Shown here: piece by piece, positions 13,883-40,013 of the stretch
Layout of the letters: each line of letters opens with the position of its first letter
Numbering within the stretch: position 1 is the stretch's first letter
Source: a virus
Length of the DNA stretch: 48,806 nucleotides
Direction: 5' to 3' (one strand)
Virus record (IMG/VR): IMGVR_UViG_3300031539_000053
Location: 1-48,806 of that record
Translations under genes and position numbers: made by a program
Notes under the pieces: generated by a model
Databases searched by the model: none
Told to the model about the DNA's origin: nothing
Seen by the model: the letters and a program-made list of their open reading frames with translations, nothing else

Positions 13883-14482
13883 TCATCCCCTGATCAGGGA
13901 TAGAAGTTCGCCGCGGGCAGAATCCGAGGATCGAAACGCGCCGAGCATGCAGGAGGTCTTGGTCACAGCGCCCTTCTTGGCGACGCCGCGCGTGCTCATG
14001 CACTGGTGCTCAGCCTCGATAACGACACCTACACCGCGAGGGGCGAGGGCCGTCTGGATGGCCTGGGCGATGTCGACGGTCATCTTCTCTTGGATCTGCA
14101 ACCGCTTGGCGAAGCAGTCGACGACGCGGGCAAGCTTGGACAAACCGACGACGCGGTCACTGGGCAGATACCCGATGTGCGCCACCCCAATGATGGGCAC
14201 GAGGTGGTGCTCGCAGTAGGACTCGAAGGTTAGCCCTTTGACGAGAACCACCTCGTCGTAGCCGGCCACATCCTCGAACGTCTTCGAGAGGATCTTGGCC
14301 GGGTCCTCGTGGTAGCCCCGGAAGAACTCTTCGTAGGCGCGCGCAACACGCGCAGGCGTGTCGACTAGGCCCTCGCGGGCCGGGTCGTCGCCAGCCCACC
14401 GAAGGAGGCAACGAACCGCCTCCTCAGCTTCCGCCCTGGTGGGGCGGAGCGGGACAGCGGCGATCTCAACCTGCGCCGTCAC
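13883..14482 (-). CDS. folE: GTP cyclohydrolase I
   Basis: A 199-residue protein converting GTP to 7,8-dihydroneopterin triphosphate, the first step of 7-deazaguanine (and folate) synthesis. The zinc ligands are visible in SYCEHHLVP (C90, H93) and EHQCMSTRG (C161). Other family blocks are GLVDTPARVARAYEEFF (38-54), SKLARVVDCFAKRLQIQE and MTVDIAQAI. Length matches type IA enzymes. Start is a GTG two bases past the upstream stop, so it is probably coupled. It is far from queD, queE and dpdA, embedded among head genes, but is the logical supplier of that pathway. Confidence 0.92.
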   Translation of the reverse strand: MTAQVEIAAVPLRPTRAEAEEAVRCLLRWAGDDPAREGLVDTPARVARAYEEFFRGYHEDPAKILSKTFEDVAGYDEVVLVKGLTFESYCEHHLVPIIGVAHIGYLPSDRVVGLSKLARVVDCFAKRLQIQEKMTVDIAQAIQTALAPRGVGVVIEAEHQCMSTRGVAKKGAVTKTSCMLGAFRSSDSARGELLSLIRG

Positions 14483-28079: not shown

Positions 28080-28622
28080 CTATAGGGGTTCAGCCAACAG
28101 CGTAGCGGCCACCTGCCAGAGCTCAAGCGCGTCTTGGTCGATGTCGGTACCGTCAACCAGGACCCCATGCCACTCTAGGATGTCGGCCACAGCCTGACCG
28201 AGCTGGAAGCCGCTCTCGATGGAGAGCGCGATCAGCGAGCTGTTCCTGGACTGGTCCTCCGGCCAGGAGTCGCGGTTGTCGAACGACCGTGCCATCGCGG
28301 CTTCGATGTTGAGGACCCTCCGGTAGTGGTCGGGGACAACCTCAATGAAGTACAGCATCCGCTCGACAACCCAGCGCACCTGCGCCTGGGTGAACAGAGG
28401 CCGGACCAAGAGCGGCATGCCCGCCGTCGCGCGGTGCTCGATGTAGAACGGCTGGCGTGCCCAGACCTTGCGGCCCTGAGCCTCATCCCAGACGAGGTAG
28501 TTCCGCTTGGACCAAAGCTGCTCGTCGCGGATGCCGTATCGCGGCTTCGATGTTGAGGACCCTCCGGTAGTGGTCGGGGACATGAGCGCAACGGTTACTC
28601 TTGTGGGACAGGTTGCCTTCAT
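28080..28622 (-). CDS. Hypothetical helical protein with duplicated DNA segment, 180 aa
   Basis: The ATG at 28622 follows AGAAGG. The main part is helical, with LWSKRNYLVWDEAQGRKVW and RWVVERMLYFIEVVPDHYRR near 85-105, and an acidic C-terminus (DGTDIDQDALELWQVA). About residues 14-28 are encoded by a 45-base segment that also encodes PDHYRRVLNIEAA later in the gene, but in another frame, so the N-terminal 25 residues (TTTGGSSTSKP) look newly made. Unknown function. It lies just upstream of terL. Confidence 0.55.
   Translation of the reverse strand: MKATCPTRVTVALMSPTTTGGSSTSKPRYGIRDEQLWSKRNYLVWDEAQGRKVWARQPFYIEHRATAGMPLLVRPLFTQAQVRWVVERMLYFIEVVPDHYRRVLNIEAAMARSFDNRDSWPEDQSRNSSLIALSIESGFQLGQAVADILEWHGVLVDGTDIDQDALELWQVAATLLAEPL
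28294..28338 (-). repeat. 45-bp exact direct repeat, copy A
   Basis: Identical to 28538-28582. This copy encodes the PDHYRRVLNIEAA helix in frame and is probably the original. Confidence 0.85.
28538..28582 (-). repeat. 45-bp exact direct repeat, copy B
   Basis: Identical to 28294-28338, 244 bases away, but read in a different frame within the same gene. Near the gene start, so it rebuilt the N-terminus. Confidence 0.85.
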
Positions 28623-33339: not shown

Positions 33340-34098
33340 CTACTTCACACCTAAGATCTTGTGCACCTGGTAGCTCAGGCGCCAGCCGGGGTGGGTACCG
33401 ATGAAGTCGATGCAGGTCTGGACGTTCGATTCAAACTGACCAGCGCCGCTCGGGACCTCTCCTGGCTTGCCGGTGCGGATGGTGTGGAGGTAGGTCTGTT
33501 CGACTGCGGACGCCTCAGTGATGTCCTGGGGTTGGACGAACTTGTGCGACCAGATGCCTAGGACTGAGAGATACTCGAGATCGGCGTTTGACCACTGGTG
33601 TTCGATAGGGCCGCCTGGGATGCCGCCTGGGAGGATAACCTTGAGTTCGGCGGCCGTCCATACCAGAAGCTCGGACCCGCGCTTGGGGGAGACGCAAACG
33701 TGATCGCAAAGGGCGAGTGCAGGGTTGTCGATAGTGCCGTTCGTTTCGATCGCGACGAACCAACCATTTCGCTTGAGTTCGACGATCAGGGCTTCGTCAA
33801 TCTGGAGCGTTGGTTCGCCACCGCTGATGACGACCATCCGACCTGGCTCAGGTAGCGAATGAGTTGCCCAGGCAGCGTCGAGCTGTGTGAGTACGGTTTC
33901 GAGATCCATCTTGGATCCCTTCGCGAAGTTCGTATCGCACCACATGGCGCATGCGCCGGATCCCTTGTGCCTGTCGGCCGGGATCCCGTTCCATTGGTTA
34001 CACCCGGCGAGTCGCATGAAGACGGCTGGTCGGCCAGACCACAAGCCCTCACCTTGGAGCGTGTGGAAGATCTCGGTTACGACGTAGTTCTTGCTCAT
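33340..34098 (-). CDS. queE: 7-carboxy-7-deazaguanine synthase (radical SAM)
   Basis: A 252-residue enzyme turning CPH4 into 7-carboxy-7-deazaguanine. The N-terminus EIFHTLQGEGLWSGRPAVFMRLAGC and later VISGGEPTLQ are diagnostic, as is AIETNGT. The cluster cysteines are C33, C50 and C54, giving Cx16Cx3C; characterised QueE enzymes use Cx14Cx2C or Cx3Cx2C, so the loop is unusual. The ATG overlaps the stop of the HNH gene (ATGA). A 78-base gap follows to the next gene; I see only an unclear leader there. Confidence 0.88.
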   Translation of the reverse strand: MSKNYVVTEIFHTLQGEGLWSGRPAVFMRLAGCNQWNGIPADRHKGSGACAMWCDTNFAKGSKMDLETVLTQLDAAWATHSLPEPGRMVVISGGEPTLQIDEALIVELKRNGWFVAIETNGTIDNPALALCDHVCVSPKRGSELLVWTAAELKVILPGGIPGGPIEHQWSNADLEYLSVLGIWSHKFVQPQDITEASAVEQTYLHTIRTGKPGEVPSGAGQFESNVQTCIDFIGTHPGWRLSYQVHKILGVK

Positions 34099-34565
34099 GG
34101 TTTCGATCTCCAAGTTTTGCCGCGAATCGCTGAGGTCATCGTAGGGGAGGACACCCCGAGTCGGCGCGCGATTGACCGGACGGACTCGCCTGCAGCATGG
34201 GCACGCCGGGCGGCGAGCACCAGCTCGAGGGTGAGCTTGGCGTTCCCGTGGGCCTCCCCGCGGCGCGGGTTGTTCACCCGTCGCCCGCGCTCGTCCATGT
34301 CGCGGACGTTGTCCTGCTGGGTCCCTAGGAGCAGGTGCTTGGGGTTCACGCAGAGCCGCACATCGCACGTATGCCGCACGATAAGGCCCCGGCGGTCAAC
34401 GCCGGGGTTGGCCAGTCCCCACGCGTATACGTGAGCTCCTACAGCCTGCGCCCCTGCGTTGAAGATCCCGTAGCCTGTGCCCTCTGCCTCGGCCCCAGTC
34501 CACAGCCAACAGCCCGTAGGGTCGCGGCGGACGTGTCGCCAGAAGAGGGCCGCGCGCGCCGTCAC
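34095..34565 (-). CDS. HNH endonuclease with C-terminal HTH, probably homing
   Basis: A 156-residue protein with GTG start overlapping the queD stop and stop overlapping the queE start. The HNH_3-type core is visible: CWLWTGAEAEGTGYGIF, then RHTCDVRLCVNPKHLLLGTQ and NVRD. The C-terminus (AARRAHAAGESVRSIARRLG) is a helix-turn-helix of the type attached to phage homing enzymes. It splits queD and queE but preserves both by exact coupling. Likely a mobile intruder rather than a pathway enzyme. Confidence 0.8.
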   Translation of the reverse strand: MTARAALFWRHVRRDPTGCWLWTGAEAEGTGYGIFNAGAQAVGAHVYAWGLANPGVDRRGLIVRHTCDVRLCVNPKHLLLGTQQDNVRDMDERGRRVNNPRRGEAHGNAKLTLELVLAARRAHAAGESVRSIARRLGVSSPTMTSAIRGKTWRSKP

Positions 34566-34975
34566 CGCACGTAGGCGAAGCAGTTTGGCGTCTCCCAGAG
34601 CTTGACCGAGACGACCTGGATCTCGTGTCTGGCCATGAGCTCGCGGGCGACGCCGAGGAACTCGAGCGCCATGTTCTCGGCGGTCGGGGTGGTCTCCATC
34701 TCGTAGCCCTTCTGGGCATACTCGTTGAGGAAAGTCTGGATCGGGTCGCCCTTCTGGTAGAGGAACCCGTGGTCCCAGTTCCTGTCGAGCCAGCCGCCGA
34801 GCTCCGTCTTGATGACACTGAAGTCGATCACGCGGCCGATGGTATCGAGGCTCAGGGCCGTGACTTCGATCTCGAAGACGTACCGATGTCCATGAGCGTT
34901 GCGACACTTTGACTCGTGGTTCATCAGCCGGTGGCCAGCGTCGATCTCCAGCCGGCGCGTGATGGTGATGGTCAC
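34562..34975 (-). CDS. queD: 6-carboxytetrahydropterin synthase
   Basis: A 137-residue enzyme acting after FolE to form 6-carboxy-5,6,7,8-tetrahydropterin. Zinc ligands H15 (DAGHR), H28 and H30 (HGH) and catalytic Cys24 are present, as are WDHG (H69), PTAEN (97-101) and the late Glu in LWETPN. Length is normal. The ATG overlaps the stop of the ParB-like gene. It provides the substrate for the adjacent QueE. Confidence 0.92.
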   Translation of the reverse strand: MTITITRRLEIDAGHRLMNHESKCRNAHGHRYVFEIEVTALSLDTIGRVIDFSVIKTELGGWLDRNWDHGFLYQKGDPIQTFLNEYAQKGYEMETTPTAENMALEFLGVARELMARHEIQVVSVKLWETPNCFAYVR

Positions 34976-35751
34976 GAGGAGGCCCCTTTGATCTTGCGCG
35001 CGCGCTTGGTAGGAGGAGGTGTGGACGCGACCGTTGCCGCTGCCTCCTGGTCCGCACTCGGGATCGTTGCCTGGAGGCGTGAGAGCCAGTGTCGCAGGAC
35101 GGTCTCGGGATTGGTCGAACCGACTGCGGCCGCACTCCGGTTGAACTCCGCCATGAGCTCGTCATGCAGGCGCGCGGCGACCGTGCCTTTGGTCGTGCCG
35201 AGCTGGAACTTCCTGTCGCCGGCGTTCGCCACAGCGGTGCCGCCTCCGTTCGTGGGAGTCGTCGCGAGCCCACCTTCGATCGCTGCCCAGTCGAAGGGCG
35301 TCGTGGATTGCACGAGGGCGTCGAGCTCGGTGGTCGACATAGGCAGCTCGAGGGCGAGCGCCTCCAGCGTCGTCCCTTCGCTCAGGTCCTTGATCAGGCT
35401 GGCGAGCAGGACGGGCTCGGGTGCTCCCCGCAGCTCGTTGGCGATGATGGTCAGCTTCTTCGCCTTCTCGTCGCTGATGGTGCCGAGGTTGACCACCGGC
35501 ACCTCGACCAGCCCCACCTTCTGGGATGCGCGCCAGCGATGCTCCCCATCGATGATCTCGTTCTCGCCGTCAGGGGTGACGCGGATCTTGATCGGCTCGA
35601 CGAAGCCGTTGTTCTGGATGCTGAGGATCTCCTTGGCGAAGGTCTCCTCGTCCATCCGGTTCGGGTTCCAAGGGTTCGGCCGCATCGCGTCGAGCCTCAT
35701 CAGCTCGACCTTCAGTCCGTCACCCCACGACACGCTCTGGCTCTGACTCAT
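34972..35751 (-). CDS. ParB/Srx-fold protein in the modification operon
   Basis: A 259-residue protein. Start is ATG 35751, overlapping the dpdA stop (ATGA). The ParB N-terminal core is clear: LDAMRPNPWNPNRMDEETF, then IQNNGFVEPIKIRV and DGEHRWRAS with the GEHR motif (69-72). A low-complexity Thr/Ala/Pro middle leads to a basic C-terminus (KRARKIKG). Such domains include segregation proteins, CTP-binding regulators and nucleases; none can be chosen here. Location points to a role on modified DNA. Confidence 0.7.
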   Translation of the reverse strand: MSQSQSVSWGDGLKVELMRLDAMRPNPWNPNRMDEETFAKEILSIQNNGFVEPIKIRVTPDGENEIIDGEHRWRASQKVGLVEVPVVNLGTISDEKAKKLTIIANELRGAPEPVLLASLIKDLSEGTTLEALALELPMSTTELDALVQSTTPFDWAAIEGGLATTPTNGGGTAVANAGDRKFQLGTTKGTVAARLHDELMAEFNRSAAAVGSTNPETVLRHWLSRLQATIPSADQEAAATVASTPPPTKRARKIKGASS

Positions 35752-36680
35752 ATGATCACCTTCGGGTGCAAGATAGCATGGTCCCAATCGACGCCGCGAC
35801 GCCGCCACATCTCGTCGAGCTGGCGCTCTGAGGTGACCCACGCCTCGGCGCTGCGAACGAGCACGTCGACGCGGGACCGCATCGTCGACACGATCCCTGT
35901 GGTCGAGGCGAGGTACGACTTGCGCTGCCCTGGCATCTGAGACTTGGCGCGCGAGTGCGTGACACCACCGGTGCGCACGACCTGGATGTCGCAGCCGTAC
36001 ATGGTCGGCGAGATCCACGACGTGGAGTCGACCGAGAAGAACGGCCACCGCTTCAGGTCCTCGTGACCTGTGATCTTGAATGCGTGGACGCGAACGCCGC
36101 GATCGTAGGCCGCCTTCAGGTACTTCTCGTACCGATGCGGCTCGCGCACTGAGGTGTTGTGCCCTTCGATGGCCACGTAGTTGGAGCGACCAGGACGACG
36201 GGCCTCTTCGAGCAACGCGATCCAATCGTCCCAGCCGTGCTCGTCCGAGTGCCAGACCTGGACGAGCCCGTGCCCCAGCCCTGCGGCGAGGAACTTCAGC
36301 CGCTGCTGTGCGACCCAAGTGCTCCCAGAGAGCACACCGATGTCGAGCTCGACCCAGTAGTCGATCAGCTTCGCGTGCGAGGTCGCCTTGACCCACACGA
36401 GGTAGGCGTCTAGGAACTCGTCGGTGTCGGTGTCGAGGGCCGTCGCCGCTCCCTCACCTGTCCGCATCCCCATCCCTGCTGTGCGGAAGGTATGCGCCCC
36501 AGAGTCTGCGAGACGGAGCTTGGCCTGCCGAAGTGCGCGCTCCCACGGAGCGCGCCTCTGCCCAAGGCCGGTCTTCCACGAGCAGTAGTAGAACGACGTC
36601 AGCAGGCACGGCACCTGGGCGCGTGTGACGGCAAGTGAATGATCAAGGGACGACTCGATAGCCGAGAGGTAGATCTTCAC
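35748..36680 (-). CDS. dpdA: DpdA-type DNA 7-deazaguanine transglycosylase
   Basis: A 310-residue TGT-like protein expected to swap guanine in DNA for a 7-deazaguanine. Motifs in TIM-barrel order are LADSGAHTF (57-65, compare DSGGF of TGT), WVELDIG (109-115), NYVAIEGHN (167-175), VHAFKITGHEDL (198-209) and PFFSVDSTSW (213-222), the last holding the probable catalytic Asp218. PFxSVDSTSW is typical of the phage DpdA branch. No zinc-binding tail is seen. Adjacent queD and queE support the call. Confidence 0.82.
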   Translation of the reverse strand: MKIYLSAIESSLDHSLAVTRAQVPCLLTSFYYCSWKTGLGQRRAPWERALRQAKLRLADSGAHTFRTAGMGMRTGEGAATALDTDTDEFLDAYLVWVKATSHAKLIDYWVELDIGVLSGSTWVAQQRLKFLAAGLGHGLVQVWHSDEHGWDDWIALLEEARRPGRSNYVAIEGHNTSVREPHRYEKYLKAAYDRGVRVHAFKITGHEDLKRWPFFSVDSTSWISPTMYGCDIQVVRTGGVTHSRAKSQMPGQRKSYLASTTGIVSTMRSRVDVLVRSAEAWVTSERQLDEMWRRRGVDWDHAILHPKVII

Positions 36681-37543
36681 GCTTCGTGCGCTTCCATGCC
36701 GTGCGGCGTGACGAGCAGGTCGAGGTCAGCCTGGACGATGTTCTCTAGGTGTGCGCGGCTGAGTTCGATGTCCGCACGGACCTTGATCGCATAGTCCGCG
36801 TCACCGTCCACCACCACCATGGCATCGATGTCGTCGTGATCACCGGCTGGGTGGAAGCGCATGATGCTGTGGGACCCTTGCGGGCGGACCTCGACGACGC
36901 GCCAGCCACGAGAGCTGAGCCAGTCCTTGACCTGACGGTAGGCGCGCAGGGGACGTGACTTCCCGAAGAAGGTTGCGAGGACGTGCTGGTACACGTACTC
37001 GGATCGCGCTCGATGGTCACCCTCGTCAACGCGCTCGACTGGGACGCGGAGCGAGTCGACGATACAATCGAGCTCGCGATCGACGCGCTCACGGTAGTCG
37101 TTCTCCGCAGTCGGGGCGCGGTGCCCATCCTCGCTGTAGACGAGCCCATCGGTGGGGATGTAGTAGAGCTGGTCGAACTGCTCGACCCACACCTTCGCCA
37201 TCATGAGCAGGGCCTCCCTGCCTGGCCACTTCGGGAAGCGCGTGTGGTAGTAGGTAGCTAGATCGAGCGGGGTGCGGTCGCAGATGACGAAGTCGACGTT
37301 CGGCCTCAGGACCGCGTGCGCCTCGGCCACCATCTTCGACATCACCATGTGGTAGTGCGCCGCCGGGTAGACGTCGAGGTACTCAGGTGGGAACGGGCGC
37401 TTGCTCCCCGCCTCTGCGGCGAGCTCGGCGCGCACACCGTGAGTGCGAAGCCGCCCAGTGAGGAGCAATGCCAGCGTGCTCTTACCTACGCTCTCCGCAC
37501 CGATGAGCCCGATCATCGTGACGTGCCCAGCAGGACCGTTCAT
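36677..37543 (-). CDS. P-loop kinase-like protein with extra C-terminal domain
   Basis: A 288-residue protein. Residues 14-22 (GAESVGKST) are a Walker A; FVICDRTPLDLATYY supplies the DR-x-P-x-D element of NadR/Ttd14-type (AAA_28) kinases. The last 70 residues form a separate part with FHPAGDHDDIDAMVVVDGDA. HPAGDH also opens the next gene upstream. It overlaps dpdA as ATGA. A small-molecule or nucleotide kinase is likely; its substrate may be linked to the modification pathway. Confidence 0.6.
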   Translation of the reverse strand: MNGPAGHVTMIGLIGAESVGKSTLALLLTGRLRTHGVRAELAAEAGSKRPFPPEYLDVYPAAHYHMVMSKMVAEAHAVLRPNVDFVICDRTPLDLATYYHTRFPKWPGREALLMMAKVWVEQFDQLYYIPTDGLVYSEDGHRAPTAENDYRERVDRELDCIVDSLRVPVERVDEGDHRARSEYVYQHVLATFFGKSRPLRAYRQVKDWLSSRGWRVVEVRPQGSHSIMRFHPAGDHDDIDAMVVVDGDADYAIKVRADIELSRAHLENIVQADLDLLVTPHGMEAHEA

Positions 37544-38025
37544 GCCTTGTCCCCGGCGTAGTCTTCAGGAACCGACCGCACACCGCTATCAACCGACCAC
37601 GTCACGAGATCGTACGGGAGGCCTACCGAAACCTGGTCGTCCTTGCGGAGCATCCTGATCCAGCGAGCTTCCATGTTCGCGCGCACCATCAGTCGCGCTG
37701 AGCGGATCCAGTAGAGGTTGAGCAGGCGCTCGACACGATGTGGAAAGGTGCCGATGGTGATCGCCACCTGACCCCCAACACACGCGCTGAGGAGCGCCTC
37801 CTCGAACTGGTCGAACGCCTCGAAGTTCTCGGTGAGGAAGATGTGCGTCACCTCCGCCCAGTCGATGCGTCCGAGAATGTCGCGCAGGTCATCCGGGCCG
37901 GGCCAGGCGTCGAGGAAGGCTGTGGGACGTCCGAGGCACTGTGGGCCCTCGACTTCGAGCCCGTACCAGAGCGCGCGCTTGGTAACGCCGATATGATCAC
38001 CGGCTGGGTGTGGCGGCGTGGTCAT
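37540..38025 (-). CDS. Unknown protein of the modification block, 161 aa
   Basis: A 161-residue protein with start ATG 38025 after a GAGGAG site. It begins MTTPPHPAGDHIGVTKRALW, then YGLEVEGPQCLGRPTAFLDAW, an alpha/beta region (EVTHIFLTENFEAFDQFEEAL) and RVERLLNLYWIRSARLMV. It shares HPAGDH, encoded by the same 17 bases, with the kinase-like gene. No enzyme family recognised. Confidence 0.5.
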   Translation of the reverse strand: MTTPPHPAGDHIGVTKRALWYGLEVEGPQCLGRPTAFLDAWPGPDDLRDILGRIDWAEVTHIFLTENFEAFDQFEEALLSACVGGQVAITIGTFPHRVERLLNLYWIRSARLMVRANMEARWIRMLRKDDQVSVGLPYDLVTWSVDSGVRSVPEDYAGDKA

Positions 38026-39025
38026 CTAACTCCTCCATGCACGCGACCATGTTCCTGATCGCATGCGTCCAACGATGTGTGTCGAGCTGGTAAGGCTCGC
38101 GTGCCTCCAACCCTGCGCGTACCTGTGCAACAGCGTGCTCGACGTCGCGGTAGCAAGACCCGAAGATCTCTCGGTACGAGAGACGGTCGGGAACAACAGG
38201 GTGTGCTCCGAGCGACGCGGCCTCCAACATCGCAATGCCCCACGTCTCCTGGAGTGCAGACGAGAAGGCCACACGTGATCCGCCGATCATGTGGTAGTAG
38301 TCCGACTTGGTCGTGCAGACCTCCTTGGTCTTGATCCACTCGACCGCCTGATCATCTGGGTAGGCTTCGCCGTAGGCGCTTCGCACCATGTCAAAGAACA
38401 CTGGGTCCTTCTCAGGGGCGAGGCGATGCGGGAACACCACCCGCCGCGAACGCGCCCCCCACAGCTCATACCGACGCGACCAGTCCTCGGCGTAGAGCGG
38501 GAAGCCTGTGACGCGAATGCTGCCGGTGTCGGTGGCGCGAGCGCCCTCCAGCATTGAGGCATGAGCGTGCGTGGCGACGAACGACAGGTCAGCCGCGGCG
38601 AGCATGGAGGTCTCTGCGTAGCGCGCCCAGTCCTTCATCGTCGGGTGCTGACCCAGGAGATCCCACGGGTCGTATGACCCGGCGTGCCAGCACGCCGCGA
38701 TCTTGAACTTGACTGCGCCGAGGTCACGCATGTACGCGAGCTGGAGGACCGCAGGGTTCCAGGCATCAAGGAGCAGGACCCAGTCCCCATCACGGACAGC
38801 GCCGCGTTGTAGATCGTGCGCGAACGCAGCGAGCTGGGTGGCCTTGAACACGTTGGTGTCGACCACGTCGAGAAACTGGCCTTGCTTGATCGCGAGCTGA
38901 GTCGGTGCACCCATGACGGTGTGGACCTCACAGCCGAGCTCCTCAAGCTTCGGTGGGAACCAGTGCAGCCATTGGGCGCTGTACCGTTCCTCAAGCGGCT
39001 CGATCGGTAGCAGATGGATCTTCAT
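37997..39025 (-). CDS. GT4-type glycosyltransferase
   Basis: A 342-residue protein with GT-B layout. The C-terminal half has RRVVFPHRLAPEKDPVFFD (donor-binding loop) and VAFSSALQETWGIAMLEAAS, in which E-x7-E (ETWGIAMLE) is the GT4 donor motif. The N-terminal half has HLLPIEPLEERYSAQWLHW and a H-G-S loop (CWHAGSYDP). It could glycosylate the modified base or a virion protein. Start and stop are both coupled to neighbours. Confidence 0.7.
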   Translation of the reverse strand: MKIHLLPIEPLEERYSAQWLHWFPPKLEELGCEVHTVMGAPTQLAIKQGQFLDVVDTNVFKATQLAAFAHDLQRGAVRDGDWVLLLDAWNPAVLQLAYMRDLGAVKFKIAACWHAGSYDPWDLLGQHPTMKDWARYAETSMLAAADLSFVATHAHASMLEGARATDTGSIRVTGFPLYAEDWSRRYELWGARSRRVVFPHRLAPEKDPVFFDMVRSAYGEAYPDDQAVEWIKTKEVCTTKSDYYHMIGGSRVAFSSALQETWGIAMLEAASLGAHPVVPDRLSYREIFGSCYRDVEHAVAQVRAGLEAREPYQLDTHRWTHAIRNMVACMEELDDHAATPSR

Positions 39026-39678
39026 CCGTCGTAGTTGCCCCAGTCACGCGGACTGTTGAAGACGTACCCATCGCAGTCCTTACAGAGATCGAGTGACTGC
39101 GAGCCCTCGACATCATGGCAACACAGGGCGAACGAGCCGTCCCAGAGCACAACCTGCCACGAGTCCTTCAGGTAGGAGCAACGCTGGGCACCGCCGTGCT
39201 GAGGCAGGTCGAGGTACCCACTGAACGAAACCATCTCCTTCTTCGGGGCGTCCGACTTCACCAGCAGTCGGTGCTCGGTGAACTCCAGCCCCTCGGGGAT
39301 AGCGAAGCTCTTGAGGCGCACGCCGAACGGATCGGTGTGCAGGCGCAGCCACGACAGCCCTGCATCGCGAAGACGCTCGAGGCGTGCCTGCACCAGACCC
39401 TTGCCGTTGGTTGAGAAGCCGACGGTGACACCGAGCTCGACCGCCACCTCGATCAGCCGCTCCAGCTTCTTGTGGAGGAGGGGCTCGCCGAAGTGATGTA
39501 GAGAGACGACCTTGTTCTCCATGCAGGCGATGGCTGCACGAAGCGTCGCCTCCTCGATGAAGCCTCGCTTGCGTGCGTGCGTGGGCTGCGGGCAGTAGGT
39601 GCAGGTCGCGTTGCACCAGTTCGTGGTCTCGATCTGGTAGACCTTTCGCGAGTCTGGGGCCGCGTCGAAGACGCTCAC
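39022..39678 (-). CDS. Radical SAM enzyme (second in the block)
   Basis: A 218-residue protein. The GTG start overlaps the previous stop. C22-x3-C26-x2-C29 (WCNATCTYCP) is the canonical cluster motif, followed by a GGE-like HHFGEPLLHKK and GFSTNGKG. The C-terminus carries extra Cys (RCSYL, FALCCHDVEG, LCKDCDGY), a SPASM-like arrangement for a second cluster. It differs from QueE, so it likely does another step, perhaps tailoring the base. Confidence 0.75.
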   Translation of the reverse strand: MSVFDAAPDSRKVYQIETTNWCNATCTYCPQPTHARKRGFIEEATLRAAIACMENKVVSLHHFGEPLLHKKLERLIEVAVELGVTVGFSTNGKGLVQARLERLRDAGLSWLRLHTDPFGVRLKSFAIPEGLEFTEHRLLVKSDAPKKEMVSFSGYLDLPQHGGAQRCSYLKDSWQVVLWDGSFALCCHDVEGSQSLDLCKDCDGYVFNSPRDWGNYDG

Positions 39679-40013
39679 GAGAACACCACCTTCGCGCCAG
39701 CTTCTCCGTCCTCCCAGATCTCGATCCAAGCGGGCGCACGGTGGCCTGCCTCAGTCAGCTTGGTGAACATGTCCTTCGCGATCATCTCGCACGACTGGGC
39801 ACCGAAGTCGGTGTTGGGCGCGTAGACCTTCCGCATCCAAGCCTGTGCCGTATGGAACTCCACATCCCGGTCATCGTGGCCCACCTTCCACGCAGCAATC
39901 ATCAGGAACAGGTGCCGGTGCGTGTTGGACAGATAGGCGACCTCACCAGGCGCGTTCGGCCAACAGTGGAAGCCTGGGATCCGATGCGTGACTAGGACGG
40001 TTGATTCAGTCAA
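39675..40013 (-). CDS. Hypothetical protein of the FHxWP type, 112 aa
   Basis: I choose TTG 40013, which has GGAG six bases upstream, over a TTG eight codons earlier. The product has GFHCWPNAPGEVAYLSNTH and HRHLFLMIAAW, then HDDRDVEFHTAQAWMRK. Similar small proteins occur beside radical SAM and modification genes in actinophages, as far as I recall. Function unknown. It overlaps the stop of the previous gene by eight bases. Confidence 0.5.
   Translation of the reverse strand: MTESTVLVTHRIPGFHCWPNAPGEVAYLSNTHRHLFLMIAAWKVGHDDRDVEFHTAQAWMRKVYAPNTDFGAQSCEMIAKDMFTKLTEAGHRAPAWIEIWEDGEAGAKVVFS

Follow-up and report, generated by a model that had tools for sequence, protein, structure and literature searches.

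We analyzed a 48,806-nt virus record from IMG/VR (IMGVR_UViG_3300031539_000053, positions 1 to 48,806; hereafter the window), which encodes a module at positions 33,340–40,013 that combines enzymes of 7-deazaguanine synthesis with a DpdA-type transglycosylase, a GT4-type glycosyltransferase and a radical S-adenosylmethionine (SAM) enzyme. Judged from this gene set, the virion DNA probably carries a glycosylated 7-deazaguanine that is made and installed by the module. Modification of DNA with 7-deazaguanines through DpdA is known in phages 9g, CAjan and others (Hutinet et al. 2019, PMC6884629); no glycosylated form is described for phage DNA in the literature searched, which did not take in Cui et al. 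2023 or the 2024 review in Microbiology and Molecular Biology Reviews.

The module consists of ten intact minus-strand frames, mostly joined by 4-nt overlaps, in the order FHxWP protein, radical SAM enzyme, GT4, 161-aa protein, kinase, DpdA, ParB-domain protein, QueD, HNH endonuclease and QueE. An earlier note on this DNA had listed these as overlapping genes (the 161-aa protein as HPAGDH), and every gene it named is indeed there; its list had missed the HNH gene, a remote FolE gene, the kinship of FHxWP with QueD and the absence of QueC. Over the 20.9 kb compared, another IMG/VR record matches at 100% identity and likewise has the frames intact; they are therefore no accident of assembly, though the second record represents the same virus rather than an independent case.

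In the order of steps that we propose, FolE, QueD and QueE would convert GTP to 7-carboxy-7-deazaguanine (CDG), and the FHxWP protein would process CDG while it is still a free base, with decarboxylation, which would give 7-deazaguanine, as the most likely reaction. DpdA, probably with the ParB-domain protein as its guide, would then swap guanine in the DNA for the processed base. GT4 would move a sugar from a sugar nucleotide onto this modified base, and the attached sugar would be oxidized or otherwise tailored by the radical SAM enzyme. The likely benefit of such DNA is protection from restriction. We put forward more tentatively, as possible rather than probable, that a 7-deazaguanine whose sugar is tailored on the DNA by an aminoglycoside-type radical SAM enzyme (dehydrogenation or deoxygenation) is a widespread phage base.

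Linkage of the module genes across viruses

Loci were gathered from the FHxWP, GT4 and DpdA families in IMG/VR, phage records and 84,980 cellular genomes, and module genes were mapped in the collected loci (L-numbers) by iterated hidden Markov models (HMMs). Queries with GT4 and FHxWP were fruitful, while among phages those with DpdA, the kinase, the 161-aa protein and the radical SAM enzyme gave almost nothing. The same combination of genes is seen in dozens of unrelated viral contigs and is thus not due to chance; the commonest order is QueD-QueE-FolE-FHxWP-radical SAM-GT4-DpdA, with ParB in part of the loci. A 7-deazaguanine gene lies within the fetched DNA in 69 of 71 distinct GT4 loci. 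Forty of the 71 are flanked on either side by 6 kb or more (“well-flanked”); all 40 have 7-deazaguanine genes, 38 have DpdA and 37 have FHxWP, ruling out GT4 or FHxWP as chance neighbors. Within the GT4 loci, all module frames share one strand, and GT4 lies less than 150 nt from DpdA in 36/71 distinct loci. The same linkage, and with it the putative pathway, is found in cultured phages, namely Acidovorax phage ACP17, Sinorhizobium phage Phosso, Synechococcus phage BUCT-ZZ01, Xanthomonas phage X1 and the Pseudomonas PA5oct group; the passages found in the paper on phage Paride make no mention of DNA modification by that phage. Only 5 of the 84,980 cellular genomes contain GT4 relatives, all on contigs of metagenome-assembled genomes and all with FHxWP.

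The DNA could instead hold simple 7-deazaguanine (or carboxy-7-deazaguanine), with GT4, the radical SAM enzyme and the kinase as mere neighbors that act on capsid, tail or host glycans. A simple system does exist alone, as FHxWP without GT4 is present in 19 well-flanked loci, several of them with DpdA, QueD and QueE, and in Cellulophaga phage phiST, where its gene lies beside QueD, QueE and FolE. This explanation is nevertheless unlikely, given that GT4 comes together with 7-deazaguanine genes in every well-flanked locus of unrelated viruses, often overlaps DpdA, and has replication and nucleotide genes rather than tail genes as module neighbors. It is likewise improbable that the free base, nucleoside or nucleotide is the substrate of GT4 and the radical SAM enzyme, ahead of insertion, or that their product is a soluble decoy or signal. 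The phosphoribosyltransferase genes found with the module in some jumbo-phage type loci would fit this idea, as would the nucleotidyltransferase-like domain of the kinase, which could activate a small molecule; but DpdA in nearly all well-flanked GT4 loci (38/40), adjoining GT4 in half of all loci, points to DNA as the destination, and glycosylation before insertion would still yield modified DNA.

The three well-flanked GT4 loci without FHxWP (L142, L152, L161) have Vut_1, a YhhQ-type queuosine-precursor transporter, directly after DpdA; a search of the whole records, possibly fragments, revealed neither QueD nor QueE. YhhQ/QPTR takes up preQ0, preQ1 or queuine (PMC11570991), and a transporter beside GT4 and DpdA with no QueD or QueE suggests an imported base. 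In Fusobacterium phage phiFN37 (L006, 9519–11828), genes for a ParB protein, a DpdA-type protein and a queuosine-precursor transporter are nearly consecutive; this cluster is a salvage-type relative that lacks GT4.

Proposed precursor synthesis and insertion into DNA

All three enzymes of 7-deazaguanine synthesis, FolE, QueD and QueE, are encoded by the window virus. QueD (6-carboxytetrahydropterin synthase; 34562–34975, minus strand as for all genes below; Pfam PTPS, 3e-28) keeps its catalytic Cys and zinc His. The cluster loop of QueE (7-carboxy-7-deazaguanine synthase; 33340–34098; PHROG 8e-28, NCBIfam 2e-47) is an unusual CX16CX3C that is common to L111, L112 and L018, and the closest NCBIfam subtype bears the name of a CX14CX2C motif. 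FolE (GTP cyclohydrolase I; 13883–14482; HMM 1e-66, PHROG 4e-68) is remote from the module, among structural genes. QueC (PF06508) gave nothing in the window and no match above the curated cut-off in any of the 27 records searched (27/27), and a preQ0 route, which would call for QueC or Gat-QueC, was rejected. With no QueC the pathway would stop short of preQ0, and CDG is the likely substrate of the FHxWP protein.

The FHxWP protein (112 aa; 39675–40013, start TTG at 40,013) has a single library match, the family of unknown function PHROG_17812, and no Pfam family above threshold. Its profile aligns with that of QueD (hhalign probability 96.8, E = 2e-10, 103 columns), while FolE and six other families score at background level only; the possibility of a FolE-like T-fold was rejected on that score. 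The AlphaFold2 model (predicted local distance difference test, pLDDT, 96) has E. coli QueD as its top PDB match (template modeling score, TM, ~0.8). Three zinc-type His residues (H16, H32, H34) are invariant in 148 relatives, as is a new Cys in an SCE motif, while the catalytic Cys and the Asp-His pair of QueD are absent in the alignment to QueD. The protein is thus a QueD-fold paralogue that shares the fold of QueD and not its activity, and is a candidate CDG-processing enzyme. Cui et al. are said to have proposed in 2023 a CDG decarboxylase, DpdL, in connection with dDG/dCDG phages; the FHxWP protein is a good candidate member of the DpdL family, a likeness drawn from the proposed role of DpdL and not from its sequence. 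FHxWP also occurs in domain fusions, in Chryseobacterium phage MA9V-3 (L013:8434–9315) and Vibrio phage Bakedbeans (L012:8218–9369), with an endonuclease VII-like domain upstream in one phage and an unassigned 260-aa region in the other.

The window transglycosylase (310 aa; 35748–36680) matches PHROG_887 (E = 1e-17), and the top PDB match of its family profile is the DNA-guanine transglycosylase 7ui4 (E = 0.012, a modest score). D59 (in DSG) and D218 (in SVDS) align with the 7ui4 motifs DxGAF and SxDST, and D59, D113, H199 and D218 are invariant in 57/57 relatives; both catalytic Asp residues, base and nucleophile, are kept. It is very probably DpdA-type and predicted to act on DNA. The suggestion that the module modifies tRNA instead (queuosine-like, as glycosylated queuosine) can draw on the membership of this enzyme in the tRNA-guanine transglycosylase (TGT) superfamily and on the PHROG label “queuine tRNA-ribosyltransferase”, but is highly improbable, as the nearest solved structure is that of a DNA enzyme and no tRNA TGT, there is no QueC and hence no preQ0/preQ1 route, and the partner is a DNA-type ParB protein.

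The gene for this ParB-domain protein (34972–35751; Pfam ParB_N, 2e-15) adjoins that of DpdA, and of 69 distinct window-type DpdA genes, 26 have such a gene less than 150 nt away; phage phiFN37 also has ParB close to its DpdA-type gene. DpdA of the bacterial dpd cluster works with a helper, DpdB. The ParB-domain protein is a probable DNA-targeting partner of DpdA, and by analogy with DpdB we would guess that it has a guiding role; NCBIfam and PADLOC scans gave no DpdB match for it, the presence of DpdB models in those libraries being unconfirmed.

Glycosyltransferase and radical SAM enzymes

The putative glycosyltransferase (342 aa; 37997–39025) scores weakly against libraries (Pfam Glycos_transf_1, E = 0.014, with 15.4 bits below the gathering threshold of 26.4; PHROG, 2.5e-4). 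The GT4 donor-binding motif is conserved among its relatives, with R201 and K206 in 125/125, E268 in 124/125 and either E or D at position 260 in 125/125; the window protein retains R201/K206 and E260-x7-E268. A UDP-glucose 4-epimerase gene (E = 5e-82) directly follows GT4 in L183 and L185–L189, which makes a sugar nucleotide the likely donor in those phages, and the epimerase HMM matches 32 loci, including PAC2 of the PA5oct group. As read from these sequences, the enzyme would transfer a sugar to the modified base. In Xanthomonas phage PhiXhv-12 (L017:6618–9852), a related glycosyltransferase gene lies beside genes for glucosamine-6-phosphate synthase-like and N-acetylglucosamine deacetylase-like proteins, perhaps another sugar-decorating set.

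Next to GT4 stands the second radical SAM enzyme of the module (219 aa; 39022–39681, start GTG at 39,681; Pfam Radical_SAM, 5e-11), with CX3CX2C present as CNATCTYC and a four-Cys auxiliary-cluster motif at the C-terminus. Two different radical SAM families occupy this site. The profile of the window type matches BtrN in the PDB (E = 3e-21) over 204/228 positions, including the auxiliary-cluster Cys region; the other family (450 aa, 26 other loci) is nearest to AprD4 (E = 3e-12), mainly over the radical SAM core, and then to CysS. BtrN oxidizes a cyclitol hydroxyl, and AprD4 deoxygenates an aminoglycoside sugar. These are the best PDB profile matches of the two module families, but the substrates of BtrN and AprD4 are antibiotic sugars and cyclitols, whereas a DNA-borne sugar is what we infer here; the kinship suggests such a substrate for the module enzymes and does not prove it.

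A radical SAM enzyme is present in 32/96 FHxWP loci with GT4 vs. 0/19 without (Fisher p = 0.0015), and in 26/41 vs. 0/7 when only loci with window-type DpdA are counted. The enzyme tracks GT4, so its step goes with the sugar and not with the base; it is on this ground that we propose sugar tailoring. The earlier note had assigned the extra radical SAM, GT4 and kinase genes to the 7-deazaguanine module; for the first two this is borne out by this pattern, the common strand and the linkage in all well-flanked GT4 loci, while the association of the kinase is weaker. The kinase family joins GT4, DpdA and ParB in a minority of distinct GT4 loci (8/71) and is present in 9/96 FHxWP loci with GT4 vs. 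1/19 without, which is not significant.

Several points weigh against a glycosylated 7-deazaguanine as the product. The modified base of this virus is a prediction from gene content. The loci are kin by descent, so counts and p-values overstate independence, and we take the counts as evidence of linkage and not as exact probabilities. The window DpdA is divergent and lacks the TGT zinc motif CxCxxC...H, for which reason we call it DpdA-type and not a canonical TGT, and the GT4 assignment leans on motifs and weak library scores. FHxWP is also found apart from GT4 (the 19 well-flanked loci above), two-thirds of the FHxWP-GT4 loci have no radical SAM enzyme of either detected family, and the simple scheme leaves unexplained L127 and L149, in which FHxWP occurs with a Vut_1/YhhQ transporter and no QueD or QueE was found. 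Finally, bare 7-deazaguanine presents GT4 with neither an obvious hydroxyl nor an obvious side-chain amine, so the acceptor is unusual or the reaction of FHxWP is not decarboxylation: FHxWP may make a side-chain group, the exocyclic amine may serve as acceptor for GT4, or the radical SAM enzyme may act first.

Known systems and accessory genes

With DpdA phages of the 9g/CAjan type the module shares FolE, QueD, QueE, a DpdA-type transglycosylase and an expected post-replicative exchange of G. It differs in lacking QueC, and so is not preQ0-based, in its very divergent DpdA, and in the addition of FHxWP, GT4, the second radical SAM enzyme, the kinase-nucleotidyltransferase and the ParB partner. 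A CDG branch point without QueC is reportedly common to the dDG/dCDG phages, whose scheme is said to include no glycosyltransferase. The bacterial dpd cluster likewise pairs DpdA with a DNA-binding-type helper, but the module has no restriction genes. As in T4 with its glucosylated hydroxymethylcytosine, a phage glycosyltransferase would decorate a modified base, presumably against restriction; base and enzymes differ, the base here would arise by transglycosylation and not at the nucleotide level, and no common ancestry is implied. QTMAN/GTDC1, a tRNA queuosine mannosyltransferase, is GT4-type and has the queuine side chain as acceptor. Both would thus be GT4-type enzymes working on a 7-deazaguanine in nucleic acid, a likeness drawn at the GT4 level only, the target of QTMAN being tRNA. 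If glycosylation of 7-deazaguanine in DNA is correct, guanine joins cytosine and thymine as a phage-glycosylated base, functions are suggested for PHROG_17812 and an unnamed GT4 family, the presence of QueE and FolE without QueC in several jumbo phages is accounted for, and radical SAM chemistry on DNA-bound sugars is opened up.

We regard the kinase-nucleotidyltransferase and the 161-aa protein as probably optional accessories. The former (36677–37543) joins a P-loop kinase (AAA_28; Pfam 1e-11) to a C-terminal third with a GSxS...DxD pattern and weak nucleotidyltransferase matches from three libraries, and could activate or modify a sugar. The 161-aa protein (37540–38025) has no Pfam, PHROG or NCBIfam match and few relatives (L111, L112–L114, L116, and phage X1 upstream of its GT4); its model (pLDDT 70) is alpha/beta, with no significant PDB match. 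Its profile weakly resembles that of QueE (73 columns, score 26.9 vs. ≤14.2 in 20 column shuffles), but the PDB fold search did not bear this out, and there was one unnamed viral match. The HNH endonuclease, which has a helix-turn-helix (34095–34565, between QueD and QueE), occupies varying positions around the module in relatives (L111, L112, L115) and is probably a mobile homing nuclease outside the pathway.

The window virus is a contractile-tailed phage with recognized genes for tail sheath, portal, terminase, major head protein, UvsX, dCTP deaminase and a polymerase I fragment. An exact 45-bp direct repeat is present at window positions 28294–28338 and 28538–28582, 244 bp apart.

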